A stretch of DNA of 64,000 nucleotides from the NCBI RefSeq assembly GCF_900473935.1, contig NZ_UCNN01000019.1, forward strand, positions 248,001-312,000. The letters run 5' to 3'. Below, one piece after another: positions 21,270-34,408 of this stretch; within the stretch, counting starts at the first letter, position 1; each line of letters opens with the position of its first letter. The notes beneath the pieces are model-generated. The model had not been told where the DNA came from and did not search any database. It saw only the letters and a program-made list of their open reading frames with translations. The stretch is from Synechococcus sp. UW105 (lineage in GTDB: Bacteria; Cyanobacteriota; Cyanobacteriia; PCC-6307; Cyanobiaceae). A program made the translations under genes and the position numbers.

Positions 21270-22685
21270 ATGAGCAAGAAGTACGACGCTGGGGTTAAGG
21301 AGTACAGGGACACTTACTGGACTCCTGATTACGTTCCCCTCGACACCGACCTGCTGGCCTGCTTCAAGTGCACCGGCCAGGAAGGCGTCCCCAAGGAAGA
21401 AGTCGCAGCTGCTGTGGCTGCTGAATCTTCCACCGGCACCTGGTCCACCGTGTGGTCCGAGCTCCTTACCGACCTCGACTTCTACAAGGGCCGTTGCTAT
21501 CGCATCGAGGACGTCCCTGGTGACAAGGAGTCCTTCTACGCCTTCATCGCTTACCCCCTCGATCTGTTCGAAGAGGGTTCCATCACCAACGTTCTGACCT
21601 CACTGGTCGGCAACGTGTTCGGATTCAAGGCTCTGCGCCACCTGCGCCTCGAGGACATTCGTTTCCCGATGGCGTTCATCAAGAGCTGCTACGGCCCTCC
21701 GAACGGTATCCAGGTCGAGCGTGACCGGATGAACAAGTACGGCCGTCCCCTGCTGGGTTGCACCATCAAGCCGAAGCTCGGCCTGAGCGGTAAGAACTAT
21801 GGCCGTGTTGTCTATGAGTGCCTCCGCGGCGGTCTGGACTTCACCAAGGACGACGAGAACATCAACTCCCAGCCCTTCCAGCGCTGGCAGAACCGCTTCG
21901 AGTTCGTTGCGGAAGCCATCAAGCTGTCCGAGCAGGAGACCGGCGAGCGTAAGGGTCACTACCTCAACGTGACCGCGAACACTCCCGAAGAGATGTATGA
22001 GCGCGCTGAGTTCGCAAAGGAACTTGGCATGCCGATCGTCATGCACGACTTCATCACCGGTGGCTTCACGGCCAACACCGGTCTGTCGAAGTGGTGCCGT
22101 AAGAACGGCATGTTGCTCCACATCCACCGCGCCATGCACGCGGTGATCGACCGTCACCCCAAGCACGGCATCCACTTCCGTGTTCTGGCTAAGTGTCTGC
22201 GTCTCTCCGGTGGTGACCAGCTTCACACCGGTACCGTCGTCGGCAAGCTGGAAGGTGATCGTCAGACCACCCTCGGCTACATCGATCAACTGCGCGAGTC
22301 CTTCGTTCCTGAAGATCGCAGCCGCGGCAACTTCTTCGATCAGGACTGGGGTTCCATGCCTGGCGTCTTCGCCGTTGCCTCCGGCGGTATCCACGTGTGG
22401 CACATGCCCGCTCTGGTTGCCATCTTCGGTGACGACTCCGTTCTCCAGTTCGGTGGTGGTACCCACGGTCACCCCTGGGGCTCTGCTGCTGGTGCGGCTG
22501 CCAACCGAGTCGCCCTCGAAGCCTGCGTCAAGGCACGTAACGCCGGTCGCGAGATCGAGAAGGAAAGCCGCGACATCCTCATGGAAGCCGCGAAGCACAG
22601 CCCCGAGCTGGCCATCGCTCTCGAGACCTGGAAGGAGATCAAGTTCGAGTTCGACACTGTCGACAAGCTCGACGTTCAGAACTGA
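21270..22685 (+). CDS. cbbL: Ribulose bisphosphate carboxylase large chain (form IA)
   Basis: 471 residues. Catalyses carboxylation (and oxygenation) of RuBP inside the carboxysome. The catalytic Lys in '[14 protein letters not shown]' and the carbamylated Lys in '[11 protein letters not shown]' are intact, as is loop 6 '[17 protein letters not shown]'. The short N-terminus ('[17 protein letters not shown]') and the operon context mark form IA, acquired by this lineage together with the alpha-carboxysome. A ribosome-binding sequence (GGAG) lies 10 nt before the ATG. A perfect hairpin follows the stop. Confidence 0.99.
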
Positions 22686-22744: not shown

Positions 22745-23086
22745 ATGCCTTTCCAGAGCACCGTGGGTGACTACCAAACAGTCGCCACCCTGGAGACCTT
22801 CGGCTTTCTTCCGCCGATGACCCAGGACGAGATCTACGACCAGATCGCTTACATCATTGCCCAGGGTTGGAGCCCGCTCGTCGAGCACGTCCATCCCAGC
22901 AATTCCATGGCCATCTATTGGTCCTATTGGAAACTGCCCTTCTTCGGTGAGAAGGACCTCAACGTTGTGGTCAGTGAGCTCGAGGCTTGCCATCGCGCTT
23001 ACCCCGACCATCACGTACGCATCGTCGGTTACGACGCATACACCCAAAGCCAGGGTTCTTGCTTCGTGGTCTTCGAGGGTCGCTGA
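22745..23086 (+). CDS. cbbS: Ribulose bisphosphate carboxylase small chain
   Basis: 113 residues. Small subunits cap the L8 core and support catalysis; in alpha-carboxysomes they also contribute to the site where CsoS2 binds. 'ETFGFLPPMTQDEIYDQIAYI' near the start and 'YWKLPFFGEKDLNVVVSELEACHRAYPDHHVRIVGYDAYTQ' are typical. It is followed by a strong intrinsic-terminator-like hairpin, then csoS2. Confidence 0.99.
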   Translation: MPFQSTVGDYQTVATLETFGFLPPMTQDEIYDQIAYIIAQGWSPLVEHVHPSNSMAIYWSYWKLPFFGEKDLNVVVSELEACHRAYPDHHVRIVGYDAYTQSQGSCFVVFEGR

Positions 23087-23185: not shown

Positions 23186-25579
23186 ATGGCAAGACTTTCT
23201 AGTCGCGAACTCGCACTTGAGCGCCGTAAAGCGCTGACCACCGCCGGTAAAAAGGCGTCGGTTGCAGCAACAGGCAGCGCCAATCGTGTGCGTAACGCCT
23301 CAGATGCGCGTCAGACCCGCACCAATGCCAATGCTTCCGAAGCACCGGCCCCCGTCAGCAGTCCTGAACCCGTTGCAGTTGCTCCGCGCCGTCCTCAGGG
23401 CCTGACAAGTGCCGCTTCCGCTTCCTCTTCTTCTCGTTCGACGGTGAAGGTCAAGCGCGACCCCAGCCGTGATCTTGTGCTGGCTCGTCGTGAAGCCCTC
23501 TCCCGTAGAGGCAAGACAGCCGACAAGAGCAGTGACCGCAATCGCGCCGATGTTGCTCGTCAGACCAAGGCTGCTCCAGTGGCGGTTGATGCGTCGAAGA
23601 AAGACTGTGGCTGTGGCGGTAGTCGTTCTGCAGCAAAAGGCTCCCCAGCCCGTCCAGCAGTCACTGTTGAGCTGAGTAATCGCTCCGGTGATCGCCGCGC
23701 TTCAGCCGAGCGTCGAACCGCTAGTCCCAAGCGGCGTGCAATTGAAAATCCCAGTCGAGCCCTTGTTTTGGCACGGCGTGAAGCTATGGCCAAGCACGGC
23801 AAGACCGCCGGCAAGCAGCCCACCAGTGCTGCTGCGGTGGCCCGTCAGGCCAATCCCGACCTGACCAGCCGTGAACTGGCCCAGCAGGTGCGTGAATTGC
23901 GCACCAAAGCAGGAGCACGTAACAAGCAAAGTGCTGGCGTGACCCGCCCCACAGGCCCCAATCGCCATGGCGCCAAGCAGGCAGCCTCGGCGGATGCCCA
24001 TTGGAAGGTGGGCGAAAGCACCACAACCTCCGGTCAGACGGTCACCGGCACCCAGGCCAACCGTTCGGTGAAGACCACCGGAAACGAAGCCAGCACCTGT
24101 CGCTCGATCACAGGAACGGAGTATCTAGGAGCCGAGGTTTTCCAGACCTTCTGCCAATCCGCCCCCGAGCCCACCACCCCCGCCAAGGTGCGCGTCACTG
24201 CCACCAGCCACGGCAATCGGGTCACCGGTAATGAGGTGGGTCGTTCTGAGAAGGTCACCGGTGATGAGCCCGGCACCTGTAAGAGCGTGACCGGCACTGA
24301 ATACATCTCTGCCAACCAGTCTGCTTCCTACTGCGGCGGTGGCAGCACGTCCCCCCGCAAGGTGGGCCACAGCCTCACCGAGCAGGGTCGTCCTGTTAGC
24401 GGTGTGATGGTTGGGCGTTCCGCCAGTGTCACCGGCGATGAAGCCGGTGCCAACCGCAATCTCACAGGCGATCAGTATCTCGGCTCCGATCCCCTGCCCG
24501 AAGGTCGCCCCGCCGCCAAGGTGGGCCTGTCCGACACCCTCTCCGGCACCGGCGTCACAGGCACCATGGTCGGTCGTTCCTCCCAAGTGACCGGTGATGA
24601 ATTCGGTTCCTGCCATCGCGTCACCGGTGATCAGTACATCAGTGCTGAACAGGTGAATGCTTTCTGTGGTGCAAAGGCTGAACCTGAGGCCGCCAAGGTT
24701 GGTTTCAGCATCACCAATCGCAATCAGGTTGTGAGTGGCACTCGTACCGGCCGATCCGAGAAGGTCACCGGTGATGAGCCCGGCAGCTGCAAAGCCGTCA
24801 CGGGTACTCCTTATGCAGGTCTCGAACAAGCCGGTCAGTATTGCGGCACTCCAGCCGTCCAGGCCATTCGTGAACGGACGCCTGTGCGTCTTGGCACCCC
24901 TGCCGCTGCGATGACAGGTCTCCAGCCGGGCATCGGCGGAGTAATGACTGGTGATGAACGTGGCGCCTGTGAGGCCGTCACCGGCACGCCATATATCGGA
25001 GCCGACCAACTGGCATCAGCCTGTGGTGCCGATGCTCCCGCAGGCACTGACAGCCACGGACAGACCGTGGATGGTGCGGCTTGGACACGCTTCAGTGTGA
25101 CCTCTCCCGCCCGTGCTGCTCAGCAGGGCCGTGAAGCTCAATCGGGAGTGACCGGTACCAGCTACGAGCAGGGGAATCGGATTACTGGCCCTTTTGATAT
25201 GGCTGGCGGCAAGGTGACGGGAACGGAGCAGTTTCGCTTCGATAACCGCGAATTTCAGGACCGTCAGCAGCGTCAGTTTCAGCCCACCGTCGCTGTGGTG
25301 AGTGAGCCTGCAGCCAAGCCGACCTCCAGGGTGACTGGTGAGGGATCCTCCACCAAGGTCACAGGAGATGACTGGGATCGTGGTGAGCACGTCACGGGCA
25401 CTGAAGGCGCTTCTGCCCGCCGTCGCAACCCCAGCCGTCCAGGCCCCATGAGTGCCATGTCCTCTTTTGAGCGCAAGCGCAATGAAGAGACTGAATGGCC
25501 TGTGAGTCGCGTCACTGGTTCCAGCGGTAACACCGAAAAAGGATCCCTGATCACCGTCTCCGGCGGCGCACGGGGCTGA
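23186..25579 (+). CDS. csoS2: Carboxysome assembly scaffold CsoS2
   Basis: 797-residue intrinsically disordered scaffold that links Rubisco to the shell. Four N-repeats carrying basic ALERRKALTTAGK-like helices are at about residues 6-23, 92-112, 189-208 and 230-250; these bind Rubisco. The middle region has six M-repeats of about 50 residues built from 'VTGDE-x-G-x-C' and 'VTGTxY' motifs (starting near residues 272, 333, 392, 446, 504 and 566), and the C-terminal region 'VTSPARAAQQGRE' onward contacts the shell. Five M-repeats have the usual Cys pair; the third has none. A CGCG motif ('KKDCGCGGS') lies in the N-region. No obvious programmed frameshift site was seen, so full-length protein is expected. 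Confidence 0.97.
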   Translation: MARLSSRELALERRKALTTAGKKASVAATGSANRVRNASDARQTRTNANASEAPAPVSSPEPVAVAPRRPQGLTSAASASSSSRSTVKVKRDPSRDLVLARREALSRRGKTADKSSDRNRADVARQTKAAPVAVDASKKDCGCGGSRSAAKGSPARPAVTVELSNRSGDRRASAERRTASPKRRAIENPSRALVLARREAMAKHGKTAGKQPTSAAAVARQANPDLTSRELAQQVRELRTKAGARNKQSAGVTRPTGPNRHGAKQAASADAHWKVGESTTTSGQTVTGTQANRSVKTTGNEASTCRSITGTEYLGAEVFQTFCQSAPEPTTPAKVRVTATSHGNRVTGNEVGRSEKVTGDEPGTCKSVTGTEYISANQSASYCGGGSTSPRKVGHSLTEQGRPVSGVMVGRSASVTGDEAGANRNLTGDQYLGSDPLPEGRPAAKVGLSDTLSGTGVTGTMVGRSSQVTGDEFGSCHRVTGDQYISAEQVNAFCGAKAEPEAAKVGFSITNRNQVVSGTRTGRSEKVTGDEPGSCKAVTGTPYAGLEQAGQYCGTPAVQAIRERTPVRLGTPAAAMTGLQPGIGGVMTGDERGACEAVTGTPYIGADQLASACGADAPAGTDSHGQTVDGAAWTRFSVTSPARAAQQGREAQSGVTGTSYEQGNRITGPFDMAGGKVTGTEQFRFDNREFQDRQQRQFQPTVAVVSEPAAKPTSRVTGEGSSTKVTGDDWDRGEHVTGTEGASARRRNPSRPGPMSAMSSFERKRNEETEWPVSRVTGSSGNTEKGSLITVSGGARG

Positions 25580-25586
25580 TCGACGC

Positions 25587-27377
25587 ATGGTGCGCTCCAA
25601 ATCAAAGCGGAGCGGGCGTCTGCAGGCCCCCACGGCTCCTACCCGTCTGCAGATGCAGCACGGCCACTCCCCGTCCACGGTGACTGGATCCGATCAATCC
25701 CTTGAACCCTCAGGGAGTGAATCGGTTCAGTCCTCTACTCGGAGTGCGGCTCTTGAGCGACGTAAGGCGCTCACCACTTCAGGGAAAGCGGCATTGCTCA
25801 CCAGCAGTTCCGTCAGTGGCGGCCGCATTCGCTCCGGTCAGGAGAGGCGACGTTCGAACGCTCAGCAGCCTGTTTGGGTGCGTCGCAAGGACCGTTCCGT
25901 CACGTCAGTCACCTCCTGTTCTCCAGAGACGGGGTTCTCTACAACCCTGGTGAGCCGTCGAGCTCCCGGTGCACTCCACCCCCTCACCGACCGAGTCGAA
26001 AACGAACGGCTCCAGGCCTATGAGCTCGAGGTCAAGGGCAGGTTCGAGCGCATTGTGCCTCTACTCCAGCAAGTGTCGGCGCTTCAGCATCAGCCCGATT
26101 TCCTGCCCCAGGCTCAGCGTCTAACCCGTGCCGAGCTCGGCTTCGATCTTCCCGACCACATTCTTGAAAAGTCCTGGGTCTGCCCCTTGGACATGCGTGC
26201 TCTGTTCGCTTGGTGTGTCTTCCAGTCTCATCAAGCTTTCAGCGAGCGATTTTTCCTTGATGATCCGCTGCAAGGAGCTTCAGGCAGCTCGCGTTCCGAT
26301 GCGTTTAATACCTTTCTGCTCGACTGTGGCTTTCATCTTCTTGATGTAACCCCCTGCGCGGATGGGCGTCTCGCCCACTCAATCGCCTATGCCCTGCGCA
26401 TTCCCTTCAGTGCGGTACGTCGCAGATCGCATGCTGGAGCGATGTTCGATGTGGAGAACACGGTCAATCGTTGGGTGAAGACAGAGCATCGTCGTTATCG
26501 CGAAAGCATTCCTAACGAGGCCCATGCTCCGACCCGTTATCTGAAGACGGTCACCTACCACTTCAGTTCACTCGATCCCACCCATCAGGGATGTGCAGCC
26601 CACGGCAGCAATGATTCGCTGGCAGCCAGTGCTGGCCTGCAGCGACTCCACGATTTCAGGGAAGCTGTTGAAAACACCTTCTGCTGTGGAGCCTCCGTTG
26701 ATCTGTTGCTGATTGGCCTCGATACCGACACAGATGCGATTCGCGTCCATGTGCCCGATCGTGATGGCGGGATCCAGCTCGACCGCTGGCTTTGTGCACA
26801 GGCTCTTTACGAAAGCACCGCGTCCCTCACCGCCGCCCAGGCCTCAGAAGCTGTGACCGCGTCTGTTCAGACCCATTGCCCTCAGGCACCCGATCCCGGC
26901 ATGGTGCGTTTCATCAGTCAGCTGCTGATCAACAACTTCTCCCAGCAGGATTACGTCAGAAGCTTGCACAATGGTCCGTATCCAGATGCTGGTCACTCTG
27001 AGCGTTTTATTGGCGTCGGTATTGGCTTTAAGGAAGTGCATCTGCGCAACCTCACCTATTTCGCTCACCTCGACACCGTTGAGGAAGGAGCTCCTGACTT
27101 GGATGTGGGAGTGAAGATCTTTAAAGGGCTGAATGTCACTCGCGATCTCCCTATCCCGGTGGTGATTCGTTTCGACTATTCCGGAAAGGTGCCGGGTGCC
27201 AGGCAGCGTGCCATCGCTGATTGTCATCGTGTTCAGGATGCGATCACCACGCGTTATTCCGATCTCGTGCGTGATGGTTTGCTTCATACCCTGCTCACGG
27301 TTCGAGACCGTGATCAATCCACACCTGCCGAAGCGGTAGGTTCCACCCTCGATCCTGTTCAACAGGAGGCGCACTGA
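25587..27377 (+). CDS. csoSCA: Carboxysomal carbonic anhydrase CsoSCA (CsoS3)
   Basis: 596 residues. Converts bicarbonate to CO2 inside the carboxysome. The catalytic domain is the diverged beta-class type; zinc-ligand regions are seen as 'FLLDCGFHLLDVTPC' and 'DPTHQGCAAHGSND'. Residues 1-150 are disordered and basic. They contain 'ALERRKALTTSGK' (about residues 55-67), almost identical to the first Rubisco-binding repeat of CsoS2, suggesting the anhydrase is tethered to Rubisco by the same kind of peptide. It starts 7 nt after csoS2 and ends 2 nt before csoS4A. Confidence 0.97.
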   Translation: MVRSKSKRSGRLQAPTAPTRLQMQHGHSPSTVTGSDQSLEPSGSESVQSSTRSAALERRKALTTSGKAALLTSSSVSGGRIRSGQERRRSNAQQPVWVRRKDRSVTSVTSCSPETGFSTTLVSRRAPGALHPLTDRVENERLQAYELEVKGRFERIVPLLQQVSALQHQPDFLPQAQRLTRAELGFDLPDHILEKSWVCPLDMRALFAWCVFQSHQAFSERFFLDDPLQGASGSSRSDAFNTFLLDCGFHLLDVTPCADGRLAHSIAYALRIPFSAVRRRSHAGAMFDVENTVNRWVKTEHRRYRESIPNEAHAPTRYLKTVTYHFSSLDPTHQGCAAHGSNDSLAASAGLQRLHDFREAVENTFCCGASVDLLLIGLDTDTDAIRVHVPDRDGGIQLDRWLCAQALYESTASLTAAQASEAVTASVQTHCPQAPDPGMVRFISQLLINNFSQQDYVRSLHNGPYPDAGHSERFIGVGIGFKEVHLRNLTYFAHLDTVEEGAPDLDVGVKIFKGLNVTRDLPIPVVIRFDYSGKVPGARQRAIADCHRVQDAITTRYSDLVRDGLLHTLLTVRDRDQSTPAEAVGSTLDPVQQEAH

Positions 27378-27982: not shown

Positions 27983-28624
27983 ATGGCCACCCCCACCCCT
28001 CGTCGTCGCTCTAGTGCTGCGGCATCCGCATCCACTAGCAAGACAACGCCGACCTCAGCAGCAGCGTCTGCTCGCGCTGCCACTTCGGCTTCCAGTTCTG
28101 CCGCCAAGACAACTGTTGATGTGACCCCCGTGCCCGCTTCCCCCACCAGCTCCAGCAGCAGTGCCACGACGACCCGTCGTGCCAGTAGTGCTGCAACCAC
28201 TCGCCGCAGCGCCAGCCGCTCCACGCCTGCTCGTGGTTCCTCAAGTCCTAGCCGCAGTTCTGGTGGCTCGAATAAAGGTGGCGGCACCCCTGCGCTTCGC
28301 CCATCCAGCTCCACACCGAGCCCTTCGGTCCAGGGCATTGCACTGGGCATGATCGAAACCCGTGGTGTGGTGCCTGCGATCGAGGCCGCCGATGCCATGA
28401 CGAAGGCGGCGGAAGTGCAATTGATCTGCCGCGAATTTGTCGGCGGTGGTTATGTCACCGTGATGGTGCGTGGCGAAACCGGCGCCGTGAACGCCGCTGT
28501 CCGTGCTGGTGCAGATGCCTGTGAGCGGGTTGGAGATGGTCTTGTGGCCGCGCATATCATTGCCCGTCCCCATGAGGAAGTTGAGCCTGCCTTGATCGCC
28601 TCCGGAGCCCGTCGTCGTCTCTGA
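27983..28624 (+). CDS. csoS1E: Carboxysome shell protein CsoS1E (BMC domain with long N-terminal extension)
   Basis: 213 residues. The first ~115 residues are a Ser/Thr/Ala/Arg-rich disordered extension; the rest is a BMC domain differing from CsoS1 at only about five positions in the aligned core (for example 'VQLICREFVGGGY' against 'VRLIGREFVGGGY'). In marine Synechococcus this extra shell paralogue is found at this position. The basic tail probably faces the lumen and could bind cargo, which is inference. The extension has no clear CsoS2-type repeat. It ends 112 nt before ndhF4. Confidence 0.9.
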   Translation: MATPTPRRRSSAAASASTSKTTPTSAAASARAATSASSSAAKTTVDVTPVPASPTSSSSSATTTRRASSAATTRRSASRSTPARGSSSPSRSSGGSNKGGGTPALRPSSSTPSPSVQGIALGMIETRGVVPAIEAADAMTKAAEVQLICREFVGGGYVTVMVRGETGAVNAAVRAGADACERVGDGLVAAHIIARPHEEVEPALIASGARRRL

Positions 28625-30588: not shown

Positions 30589-32097
30589 ATGATGTTGTTA
30601 ACCCTCCTCCTTCTGATTCCCTTTCTTGGGGCCCTGCTCATCACCCTTTTGCCGGGTGATCGAAGCTCTGATTTCTACCGTCGCGTCTGCGTCGTTGTTC
30701 TGTCTGTTCAGTGCCTCGCCAGTGTTGGTCTCTTGGTGCCCTTTGACGCTTCCGAGGCTGGTCTGCAGCTCGTAGAAACCTTTGCCTGGCTCCCCAGCAT
30801 CGGGCTGGATTACGCCCTTGCGGTCGATGGCCTTTCCATGCCGTTGGTGCTGATGAATGGCGTGCTCTGCCTGGTGTCGGCCCTTGCCTCTCGTCAGGTT
30901 GAGAATCGACCCCGTATTTACTTTGCTTTGCTGCTGGTGATCAGCGGTGCTGTGAATGGCGCTTTCCTAGCCCAGAACCTGCTGCTGTTTTTCATCTTCT
31001 ATGAACTGGAATTGATCCCTCTCTGGATGCTGATCGCGGTCTGGGGGGGTGCCAACCGTGCCTATGCATCTACAAAGTTTCTCATTGTCACTGCTGTCTC
31101 AGGGATGCTCATCCTTGGAGCATTCCTGGGAATGGCTCTGCTCACCGGCAGTGTTGATTTCGGTCTGAATCCGATCGTTCCTGGTGCCCTGCCGATGGTC
31201 ACTCAGTTGGTGCTGATGGGAGCCCTTCTGATCGGATTCGGCATCAAGATTCCGCTCTTCCCATTTCACACATGGCTTCCGGATGCCCACACCGAAGCGT
31301 CCACGCCTGTGTCTGTGCTCCTGGCAGGTGTGCTCCTCAAACTCGGAACCTATGGGTTGTTGCGCTTTTGCCTCGGTCTGTTCCCTGAGGCCTGGCATCT
31401 TGCGGCTCCCTGGCTTGCTGGCTGGGCGGCGGTTTCAGTGCTGTATGGATCCCTTGCCGCGATTGCCCAGACCGACATGAAGCGCATGGTGGCCTACAGC
31501 TCGGTTGGCCACATGGGCTATGTGCTGCTTGCAGCAGCAGCGGCGACGCCTCTGGGCCTGATTGGAGCCCTGTTTCAGATGGTCAGCCATGGGCTGATCT
31601 CGGCCATCCTTTTCCTTGTGGTTGGTGTGGTTTACGAACGCACTGGCACGCGCGATCTAACGGTGCTTCGCGGCTTGCTGAATCCGCAGAGAGGCCTGCC
31701 CTTGAGCGGCACCCTGATGATCATTGGGGTGATGGCCAGTGCCGGTATCCCCGGCATGGCGGGTTTCATCTCCGAATTTTTGATCTTCCGAGGCAGCCTT
31801 CAGCCGTTTCCCCTGGCCACCCTGCTGAGCATGGTGGGGTCAGGCCTCACAGCGGTGTATTTCCTGTTGCTGGTCAACCGTGCATTCTTTGGCCGGCTGG
31901 CGATCGCTTCAGGCGGCGATCCCAATCCGAAGGTGCTGCTTCCTGTCCCTCTGGGACAGCAAATGCCAGCCATTCTCTTGTCCTTGTCCGTGCTGGTGCT
32001 TGGTCTTGCTCCCCATTTGTTAGTCGGGTTGAGTGAAGCTGCCACGACAGGCCTGAGCCAGATCGCCGTTACTCAGTTTTCCGGAGGATTGTCCTGA
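30589..32097 (+). CDS. ndhD4: NDH-1 subunit NdhD4 (CO2-uptake complex)
   Basis: 502 residues, about 14 membrane segments; NuoM-like partner of NdhF4. Key segments are 'LLFFIFYELELIPLWMLIAVWGG' (with the conserved Glu), 'FGIKIPLFPFHTWLPDAHTEA' and 'AQTDMKRMVAYSSVGHMGYVLL'. Adjacent ATG codons at 30589 and 30592 are equivalent starts. Its stop overlaps the start of cupB (TGATGA), so the two are translationally coupled. Confidence 0.95.
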   Translation: MMLLTLLLLIPFLGALLITLLPGDRSSDFYRRVCVVVLSVQCLASVGLLVPFDASEAGLQLVETFAWLPSIGLDYALAVDGLSMPLVLMNGVLCLVSALASRQVENRPRIYFALLLVISGAVNGAFLAQNLLLFFIFYELELIPLWMLIAVWGGANRAYASTKFLIVTAVSGMLILGAFLGMALLTGSVDFGLNPIVPGALPMVTQLVLMGALLIGFGIKIPLFPFHTWLPDAHTEASTPVSVLLAGVLLKLGTYGLLRFCLGLFPEAWHLAAPWLAGWAAVSVLYGSLAAIAQTDMKRMVAYSSVGHMGYVLLAAAAATPLGLIGALFQMVSHGLISAILFLVVGVVYERTGTRDLTVLRGLLNPQRGLPLSGTLMIIGVMASAGIPGMAGFISEFLIFRGSLQPFPLATLLSMVGSGLTAVYFLLLVNRAFFGRLAIASGGDPNPKVLLPVPLGQQMPAILLSLSVLVLGLAPHLLVGLSEAATTGLSQIAVTQFSGGLS

Positions 32098-33227
32098 TGA
32101 CTGCCACCCAGACACAGACAGCCTTGATCCCTGATCTCGATGTGCTGATCTCCCGTTTGTTGGCGGATCAGCCTCTACTGGCGGATACGCCAGACCACCT
32201 ACTTCAGGTGGTGAATGTGCTTGAGAGTTACGGCATCGTGCTTGATGCTTACAGCAAGAACCTTGTGTATCAGGGGGAAACACAGTTGCTGAATCCTTTC
32301 CCCGTTATGCGCTTCTTCCATGAGGGTTTTTCTCTGGAACGCTTGTGGAAGCATTTGGTCGGTGATCGCATCAATTTTGAATATGCTGAGTACTGCCAAA
32401 AGGCGATGTTTTGGCATGCCACCGGTGGTATGGATGCCTACTTCGATAGCGCCCCATTTCTTGAGGCCTGTGATCGCATCATTCGATTGCGCTGCCGTCG
32501 TGATCCATTGATGGCTGTCGTCAACAGGTTGTTTCCTGCTTTCGCGCCCGAGTCGATCCGATCGCTCACCACGATTTACGCCCTTGGATTGTTTTGGCGT
32601 GTGATGAGTGATCTGTTCATTGATTTGGCCCATCGCTACCGCATTGGTGACGTGGCCTGTGTCAATGACGTGGTGCATCACATCCGCGATGGTTTGGTGG
32701 CAGCTGCGGCCAATCCGATCACCTATCAGGTCAGCGAGGGAGGAGAACAAATCTGGCTGCTTCCGCCGGAGGCCGGTCTGACCTTCCTCGGTGATGTTGC
32801 TGTTCCTTATGTGGAAGCGGTGTTCTTTCGGGGGATGCCGTTCCTAGGCACCGTGTCTTACAACGCTCAGGCTCAGCAGATTTCTCCTGATCTGGGCAGT
32901 TTCCGCTATGGAGCGCTTTACGCCGATCCGATTCCCAGCATGGGTGCAGGGATCCCACCAAGCCTCTGCATGCAGGATATGTTCCGCAATCTGCCCGAGG
33001 AACTGGATCATTGGTACGACAGCCATGGCCGTGGCCAGGTTGATGCCCATGTTCAGATCTGCGTGAGCTTTCAGAAGTCGATGTTCTGTGTCACCAACGG
33101 TGCTATCGCGGGAACCATGCCCCATCCGCTCGATAGCCATGATCAGGAGGCCCAACAGGCCAATCGTGATCACGCCAGAGCTTGGGCGGAGCGACTGATG
33201 GGCTGCCGTCGTGAAGCGTTGATCTAG
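32097..33227 (+). CDS. cupB: CO2 hydration protein CupB/ChpX
   Basis: 376 residues. CupA/CupB proteins are carbonic-anhydrase-like subunits on the NDH-1MS complexes that make CO2 hydration effectively one-way. The sequence has the family pattern: 'LLNPFPVMRFFHEGFSLERLWKHLVGDRINFEYAEYCQKAMFWHATGGMDAYFDS' at the start and 'SFQKSMFCVTNGAIAGTMPHPLD' at the end, with several conserved His and Cys that may bind zinc. The constitutive CupB form is inferred from its pairing with NdhD4/F4. Confidence 0.93.
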   Translation: MTATQTQTALIPDLDVLISRLLADQPLLADTPDHLLQVVNVLESYGIVLDAYSKNLVYQGETQLLNPFPVMRFFHEGFSLERLWKHLVGDRINFEYAEYCQKAMFWHATGGMDAYFDSAPFLEACDRIIRLRCRRDPLMAVVNRLFPAFAPESIRSLTTIYALGLFWRVMSDLFIDLAHRYRIGDVACVNDVVHHIRDGLVAAAANPITYQVSEGGEQIWLLPPEAGLTFLGDVAVPYVEAVFFRGMPFLGTVSYNAQAQQISPDLGSFRYGALYADPIPSMGAGIPPSLCMQDMFRNLPEELDHWYDSHGRGQVDAHVQICVSFQKSMFCVTNGAIAGTMPHPLDSHDQEAQQANRDHARAWAERLMGCRREALI

Positions 33228-33255: not shown

Positions 33256-33510
33256 GTGAAGCACGCATGGGAGGAACGCAATCGTCCAATTCGGCTTGAG
33301 CGTCGGCTCGAGTTCGAGACCTATAGCGCCACTCGCGATTTCCTTGACCGGTTGGGCAGCCTCAGTGAAGACAAACAGCGCTTCCCTGATATCAGCTTTG
33401 GTAGGACTTACGTGAATATCACCCTGCGTCCCCTCGATGAGAGTGAAGGCGCTTGCCTTCAGGCTGACGACCACGCCTTCGCGGCGGGTGTGGATGAACT
33501 CCTCGATTGA
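33256..33510 (+). CDS. acRAF-like Rubisco assembly factor (pterin carbinolamine dehydratase fold)
   Basis: 84 residues from a GTG. The pattern '[45 protein letters not shown]' is that of pterin-4a-carbinolamine dehydratase, but the usual catalytic His-His-Pro is replaced by 'RFPDISFG', so enzymatic activity is doubtful. PCD-like proteins next to alpha-carboxysome genes are known Rubisco assembly factors (acRAF), which fits this place between cupB and cbbX. Its last 17 nt overlap cbbX in another frame. Confidence 0.85.
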
Positions 33511-34408
33511 TCTGGCCGCTCGCTACGCCGAGTCGGGCGTGGCTGAAGTGCTTGAGCAGCTTGATCAGGATTTGGTGGGTCTGCTTCCAGTCAAAACTCG
33601 GATTCGTGAGATCGCGGCATTGCTTCTGGTGGAACAAGCGCGTCAGGCTCTGGATCTGCCTTGTGGTGCGCCGGGATTGCACATGTCGTTCACAGGTAGG
33701 CCTGGAACTGGGAAGACCACTGTTGCGGTCAGAATTTCTCAGATCCTCCATCGTCTCGGTTACCTACGCAAAGGCCATGTAGTGACGGTGACTCGTGATG
33801 ATCTGGTTGGGCAATATGTGGGGCATACTGCGCCTAAAACCCGGGAAATGATCAAGCGTGCACAAGGTGGTGTGCTGTTCATTGATGAGGCTTACTACCT
33901 GTATAAGTCAGGAAACGAAAGGGATTATGGCGCGGAGGCGATTGAAATTCTTCTCCAGGATATGGAACGTCAGAGGAGTGATTTTGTGGTCATCTTTGCG
34001 GGCTATAAGGATGAGATGGATGCTTTCTATCAGTCCAATCCTGGCCTAAAGTCTCGCGTTGCTCATCATGTGGACTTCCCTGATTACAGTGATCAAGAGC
34101 TGATGGAGATTGCTCAGATGTTGTTAGAGAAGCAGGCTTATCGTTTTGACTCTCAGGCAAAAGTGGTTTTTGCTGACTACATTTTTAGGCGACGTCAGTT
34201 GCCATTTTTTGCCAATGCTCGTTCTATTCGTAATGCGATTGATCGCATGCGCCTTCGTCAGGCCAATCGCTTGTTCTCACGGATGGGTGAATGCCTCAGC
34301 CGCGATGATCTGATCACAATCACGGCAGCTGACATCCTCAGCAGTCGTGTGTTTCAAGGTGAAGTGGAGGGGCAAGACCCGGCTCGCCCTCTCACCCCAC
34401 TGCCATGA
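33494..34408 (+). CDS. cbbX: Rubisco activase CbbX (AAA+)
   Basis: 304 residues from the ATG at 33494, inside the end of the acRAF gene. An AAA+ ATPase that remodels inhibited Rubisco. Walker A 'GRPGTGKTT', Walker B '[12 protein letters not shown]', and '[22 protein letters not shown]' are all present. CbbX was defined with red-type Rubisco; here it accompanies form IA, as in other alpha-carboxysome organisms. Its base composition is lower in GC (roughly 45-50% by eye) than the flanking genes (about 57-60%). An upstream reading to 33437 would lie almost entirely in the acRAF gene and is not favoured. Confidence 0.93.

Follow-up and report, generated by a model that had tools for sequence, protein, structure and literature searches.

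A CsoS2-type N-repeat in the disordered tail of the carboxysomal carbonic anhydrase of marine Synechococcus

The disordered N-terminal tail of the carboxysomal carbonic anhydrase CsoSCA carries a CsoS2-type N-repeat in marine Synechococcus. From sequence comparisons, we consider it likely that this tail contains a copied CsoS2 N-terminal unit, made up of the helix of the first N-repeat (N1) and a downstream RVRxxxD element, and that the unit acts as a Rubisco sticker in addition to the PTAPx[R/K]R element that the tail also has. What the sequences show directly is the motif, that it is homologous to CsoS2 N1, and that it is conserved and clade-restricted. Anhydrase loading into alpha-carboxysomes has been worked out only recently and for one bacterium only, and the cyanobacterial anchor is unassigned. 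The N-repeat is a specific candidate for that anchor in an abundant marine lineage, in which natural deletion mutants can serve as controls. Moreover, duplication of a sticker from a neighboring gene would offer a cargo enzyme a route into an existing condensate, one that could be put straight to use in directing enzymes into engineered carboxysomes.

The CsoS2-type motif in the CsoSCA tail

The window, a stretch of 64,000 nucleotides from Synechococcus sp. UW105, contains an alpha-carboxysome operon on its plus strand in which Pfam and NCBIfam models identify cbbL, cbbS, csoS2 and csoSCA. The features on which the analysis draws are as follows.

21270..22685, plus strand: cbbL, form IA Rubisco large subunit (Pfam/NCBIfam)
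22745..23086, plus strand: cbbS, Rubisco small subunit (match to solved Rubisco small subunits)
23186..25579, plus strand: csoS2, scaffold protein (Pfam CsoS2_M, E 1.6e-218; NCBIfam CsoS2 cyanobacterial model, 1273 bits)
23204..23251, plus strand: CsoS2 N-repeat 1 (N1), RELALERRKALTTAGK, strict consensus
23285..23311, plus strand: post-N1 element RVRNASDAR in CsoS2
23468..23515, plus strand: CsoS2 N-repeat 2 (N2), strict repeat
23756..23803, plus strand: CsoS2 N-repeat 3 (N3), strict repeat
25587..27377, plus strand: csoSCA, carboxysomal beta-carbonic anhydrase (Pfam CsoSCA_N/cat/C)
25629..25646, plus strand: PTAPTR, CsoSCA residues 15-20, the element general to CsoSCA tails of cyanobacteria
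25728..25916, plus strand: CsoS2-like segment, CsoSCA residues 48-110 against CsoS2 profile positions 3-64 (NCBIfam NF050159, E 1.2e-6)
25740..25787, plus strand: N-repeat in CsoSCA, residues 52-67, RSAALERRKALTTSGK, matching the consensus and forming the main predicted helix of the tail (51-64)
25824..25850, plus strand: post-repeat element RIRSGQERR, CsoSCA residues 80-88, corresponding to the element after N1 in CsoS2

The anhydrase is identified by Pfam PF20687, PF20686 and PF08936, by TIGR02701 at 680 bits and by the adjacent csoS2 and cbbLS genes. AF2 pLDDT values divide it into a disordered tail of about residues 1-127 and folded domains at residues 131-587. Two further genes of the window belong to the surroundings of the operon. 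A CsoS1-like BMC shell protein (27983-28624) has a Ser/Ala/Arg-rich N-terminal extension of about 115 residues, resembling CsoS1E, and a gene for a CbbX-type AAA+ Rubisco activase (33437-34408) lies downstream of the carboxysome operon, adjoining ChpXY (32097-33227).

A preliminary description of this DNA had pointed out a CsoS2-type motif in CsoSCA as a 13-residue match to N1. We confirmed the match, with 12 of 13 residues identical over ALERRKALTT[S/A]GK, and found that residues 52-67 satisfy the full 16-residue N-repeat consensus, RxxxxxRRxxxxxxGK. A chance match was rejected on shuffles of the tail: identity to the CsoS2 N-region never exceeded 8/13 in 150 shuffles, and the strict pattern arose in 166 of 200,000. 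A search of the 2.66 Mb genome with an N-repeat profile gave E values below 0.03 only at the three CsoS2 repeats and the CsoSCA site, and no N-repeat outside CsoS2 and CsoSCA beyond weak matches (E >0.03). This profile was built with the window's own motif included, so the independent test is a profile from CsoS2 alone. With an HMM built only from CsoS2 N1 units, 54 distinct marine tails scored at least 24.2 bits (median 35.5), whereas none of 1,704 shuffles scored above 7.6. AF2 places a helix at residues 51-64 inside the tail, a low-confidence prediction with tail pLDDT below 50.

Two details of the preliminary description fared less well. The codons of the two genes had been called different, which is half true: the same codon is used at 7 of the 15 identical residues, and the DNA is identical at 41 of 60 positions. 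The remainder of the disordered regions had been called unalike, a statement that is wrong, since similarity runs on to about residue 88-110. CsoSCA is not a whole CsoS2 with N-region repeats, M-region and C-region: its match to the CsoS2 model is confined to positions 3-64, and the CsoS2_M domain is lacking. No motif resembling the PRLDLIEQA peptide of H. neapolitanus CsoSCA was found in residues 1-127.

Distribution, constraint and natural losses

The strict motif is present in the CsoSCA tails of 53 of 56 marine Synechococcus genomes. These comprise 25 of 27 complete tails in the genus of the window (g1) and 28 of 29 genomes in a second genus (g5), a count in which four genomes (G061, G291, G303 and G346) were entered from DNA pattern matches. 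We take both genera to be marine Synechococcus from the names of records with tails of this kind (Synechococcus sp. UW140, MU1642 and numerous single-cell genomes labeled Synechococcus). The wider sample held 174 distinct CsoSCA tails, drawn from named contigs and family genomes. The motif is absent from the remaining ~117 of these, which belong to Prochlorococcus, Cyanobium, Vulcanococcus, relatives of WH 5701 and others, and none of them scored above shuffles with the CsoS2-only N-repeat profile. In a DNA pattern search of 400 family genomes, two linked sites in one genome likewise occurred in g1 and g5 alone; the remaining genera had no site, or only sites matching CsoS2 N1. Absence of the motif from other picocyanobacteria had been named as grounds for refutation, and here the outcome is mixed: it is nearly universal in marine Synechococcus and missing from all sampled Prochlorococcus and freshwater relatives.

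We also considered the tails of Vulcanococcus and Cyanobium (e.g. SKVLRQRELANAARTGNSR) as diverged N-repeats, and rejected them on scores that were not above shuffles. The CsoSCA tails of Vulcanococcus and relatives (e.g. L054, L059, L061 and L188) have a different conserved segment, LSKVLRQRELAxxARTGNSR, and in tails of this type RRVRPVATQV precedes the folded domain. The former segment is possibly another sticker; by profile it is not an N-repeat.

Where the N-repeat is present, it is under purifying selection. Pooled pairwise dN/dS was 0.08 for residues 50-69 and 0.08 for the folded core, 0.15 for the PTAP element and 0.62 for the linker between the two elements; these ratios are rough because synonymous sites are near saturation, but the contrast is still large. 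Residues R52, R58, R59, A61, L62, G66, K67 and A69 are invariant in a thinned set of 35 marine CsoSCA sequences. The repeat has nonetheless been lost in frame on two independent occasions, once in the lineage of G169 (L210) and G181 (L208) and once in G162 (L231). In G169 and G181, everything between PTAPTRRQLQ and QPAWVRR is missing. In G162 the helix is gone and GGRVRSAGD is kept. The PTAP elements of all three genomes are intact, as is CsoS2 N1 in G169 and G181; in G162, N1 was found as a pattern match. With two lineages lacking the motif, the N-repeat is dispensable in some genomes: constrained where it occurs, yet not essential throughout. Since most cyanobacterial CsoSCA proteins have no N-repeat, they must be recruited otherwise.

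Origin of the repeat

Several features of the tail link it to the start of CsoS2 in particular. Of the 11 free (non-consensus) positions, the CsoSCA motif shares on average 6.95 with the N1 of its own genome, compared with 2.95 for N2 and 2.05 for N3. The likeness extends past the repeat. In cyanobacterial CsoS2, RVRxxxDxR is a conserved element that follows the first N-repeat only (70 distinct N1 units); it begins 9-11 residues after the GK of N1, and in CsoSCA 12 residues lie between the motif and the same element. A match to R[VITL]RxxxD/E follows the motif in 70/70 distinct N1 units and 47/48 CsoSCA tails, compared with 4/81 N2 units, 0/30 N3 units and 0.6% of shuffled CsoSCA segments. Aligned on their own with hhalign, the post-motif segments gave E 1.3e-5 and a score of 21.0, with a maximum of 14.0 over 100 column shuffles. 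We found no role for the RVRxxxDxR element in the literature searched. Moreover, the NCBIfam cyanobacterial CsoS2 model NF050159 matches 26 of 33 aligned CsoSCA sequences, 27 of these 33 being motif carriers.

Because of the N1-specific agreement at free sites, the shared post-N1 element and the CsoS2 model match over residues 48-110, descent of the CsoSCA tag from the N-terminus of CsoS2 is the most likely reading, rather than convergent mimicry. The preliminary description had seen the anhydrase as mimicking the scaffold; a genuine, conserved CsoS2-type N-repeat is there, and a copied piece of CsoS2 is a better account of it than convergence. That a short linear motif arose convergently has something to recommend it, as the consensus is short and degenerate and H. 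neapolitanus CsoSCA came to the same Rubisco site with an unrelated motif (PMC10614612). It is nevertheless very improbable given that the free-position match is specific to N1, that the post-N1 element is shared as well, at a similar distance, and that an independently built CsoS2 family model reaches residues 48-110.

The simplest account of these sequences is that the tail of the next gene received a copied CsoS2 N-terminus. This would have happened once, by duplication of the csoS2 start into its neighbor csoSCA, at the base of marine Synechococcus or close to it. We rejected a recent conversion of CsoSCA by N1 or the reverse: the motif agrees with its own N1 at 11.95 of 16 positions and with the N1 of other genomes at 12.05. 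In a tree of the CsoSCA core, carriers fall into two groups with no single clade (four changes on the tree). The AU test did not reject a constraint to one clade (p 0.206), which makes a single gain followed by losses of the motif a possible, though unproven, history.

Rubisco binding and comparison with known systems

Blikstad et al. 2023 (PMC10614612) showed for H. neapolitanus that the disordered N-terminus of CsoSCA occupies the CsoS2 site on Rubisco, in competition with CsoS2. According to Pulsford et al. 2024 (PMC11086599), the CsoSCA tail likely holds a single binding motif. The proposal that the anhydrase of the window carries its own Rubisco sticker finds partial support here, by analogy, in a conserved N-repeat located in the tail region that recruits H. 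neapolitanus CsoSCA via Rubisco (PMC10614612). From its sequence, we infer that the motif binds Rubisco in the manner of CsoS2. On Rubisco, D26, D99, S345 and F346 of H. neapolitanus CbbL correspond to D25, D98, S344 and F345, all four conserved, and Y96 and D94 of its CbbS to Y99 and D97. Y72 of H. neapolitanus CbbL, described as conserved in alpha-carboxysome Rubisco, corresponds to F71 (21480-21482), and this position is Phe in every cyanobacterial CbbL where the site was found. The Phe at CbbL 71 could still stack on an arginine, but offers no hydroxyl for the bond that the CsoSCA peptide of H. neapolitanus makes, and the two sites are not identical.

In the proposed mechanism, the CsoSCA peptide would form a short helix and span the CbbL-CbbL/CbbS groove on form IA Rubisco, the site of CsoS2 N-repeat binding, with its arginines stacked on CbbL F71 and CbbS Y99. 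Hexameric CsoSCA is known from other systems (PMC11086599, PMC12646314); the six tails of a hexamer would provide avidity and draw the enzyme into the Rubisco-CsoS2 condensate. The N-repeat would supplement PTAPx[R/K]R, an older element of the tail, rather than act as the only anchor. A bolder version, which we offer tentatively and think somewhat doubtful, is that by capturing the start of the neighboring scaffold gene the anhydrase became a two-sticker (PTAP plus N-repeat) hexamer and a minor Rubisco cross-linker. The rule that the CsoSCA sticker differs from that of CsoS2 would then fail in a lineage that ranks among the main phototrophs of the ocean, and RVRxxxD would be a second, unrecognized part of the CsoS2 N1 interface.

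The weight given to the two tail elements could be reversed, with PTAPx[R/K]R as the main Rubisco or shell anchor of all cyanobacterial CsoSCA and the N-repeat adding only avidity in marine Synechococcus. We regard this as a serious, though not the favored, possibility. PTAP occurs in nearly every family tail sampled and in 87% of cyanobacterial CsoSCA sequences (PMC10614612), persists in both lineages without the N-repeat and is itself constrained in marine Synechococcus (dN/dS 0.15). On the other hand, PTAP-Rubisco binding was not found in the literature searched, the N-repeat is under the stronger constraint (0.08 vs 0.15) in the clade that has both, and the window copy, PTAPTRL, departs from the strict consensus. 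A different partner for the copied unit, such as the shell proteins CsoS1 or CsoS1D, instead of or besides Rubisco, is unlikely. Peptide arrays of MIT9313 CsoS2 did give CsoS1 and CsoS1D signals at N-repeats besides Rubisco (PMC4499774), HnCsoSCA touches shell hexamers (PMC12646314), and the RVRxxxD element has no assigned partner; but in BLI, H. neapolitanus CsoSCA bound Rubisco and no shell protein among those tried, and structural work on N-repeats has been done with Rubisco.

The preliminary description went on to suggest that CsoSCA and CsoS2 compete for one Rubisco site and that their ratio sets the amount of enzyme encapsulated. Same-site competition was measured by BLI for the H. neapolitanus proteins, with a different CsoSCA motif (PMC10614612), and the same motif class is present here. 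Control by the ratio is a separate claim, and we find it unsupported and improbable, because an H. neapolitanus carboxysome is estimated to have ~3,600 Rubisco sites for ~1,800 CsoS2 and 120 CsoSCA motifs, an excess of about 2:1, and because Blikstad et al. argue for expression control (PMC10614612). Recruitment into mixed condensates also works with both CsoS2 and CsoSCA present (PMC10614612).

The copied CsoS2 unit that we favor can be set beside systems already described. The direct prior art is Prochlorococcus CsoSCA, reported to carry RxxxxxRRxxxxxxGK (PMC10614612, SI Fig. S13A), the same motif in the same protein. The core of the present finding is thus already in print as one sentence, which places the motif in "a handful" of Prochlorococcus CsoSCA, "suggesting an evolutionary relationship". 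Against that wording, no sampled Prochlorococcus tail carries the motif and nearly all marine Synechococcus tails do, a discrepancy that may be a matter of naming. New here are the clade-wide distribution, the probable origin by duplication of a unit that extends beyond the published motif, the co-occurrence with PTAP and the natural loss variants; the spread, origin and natural losses of the motif are not described in the full-text literature searched. PTAPx[R/K]R (PMC10614612) is likewise a conserved short element of this tail and co-occurs with the N-repeat in the window, but is unrelated in sequence and family-wide. The H. neapolitanus CsoSCA peptide PRLDLIEQA (PDB 7SMK, 7SNV; PMC10614612) sits in the same disordered tail of the same protein and, by analogy, would share the Rubisco patch and the role in encapsulation; it differs from the CsoS2 repeat in sequence and binding mode and has no homology to CsoS2. 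The closest relative is the CsoS2 N-repeat itself, above all N1 (Cai 2015, PMC4499774; Rubisco with the CsoS2 N* peptide, PDB 6UEW), with which the CsoSCA motif shares its consensus, helix prediction, disordered setting and downstream RVRxxxD. Unlike N1, the CsoSCA motif is a single copy in an enzyme tail with partly diverged free positions: positions 2-3, E and L in N1, are mostly S/Q/A and A/S, and GK is followed by A in place of K.
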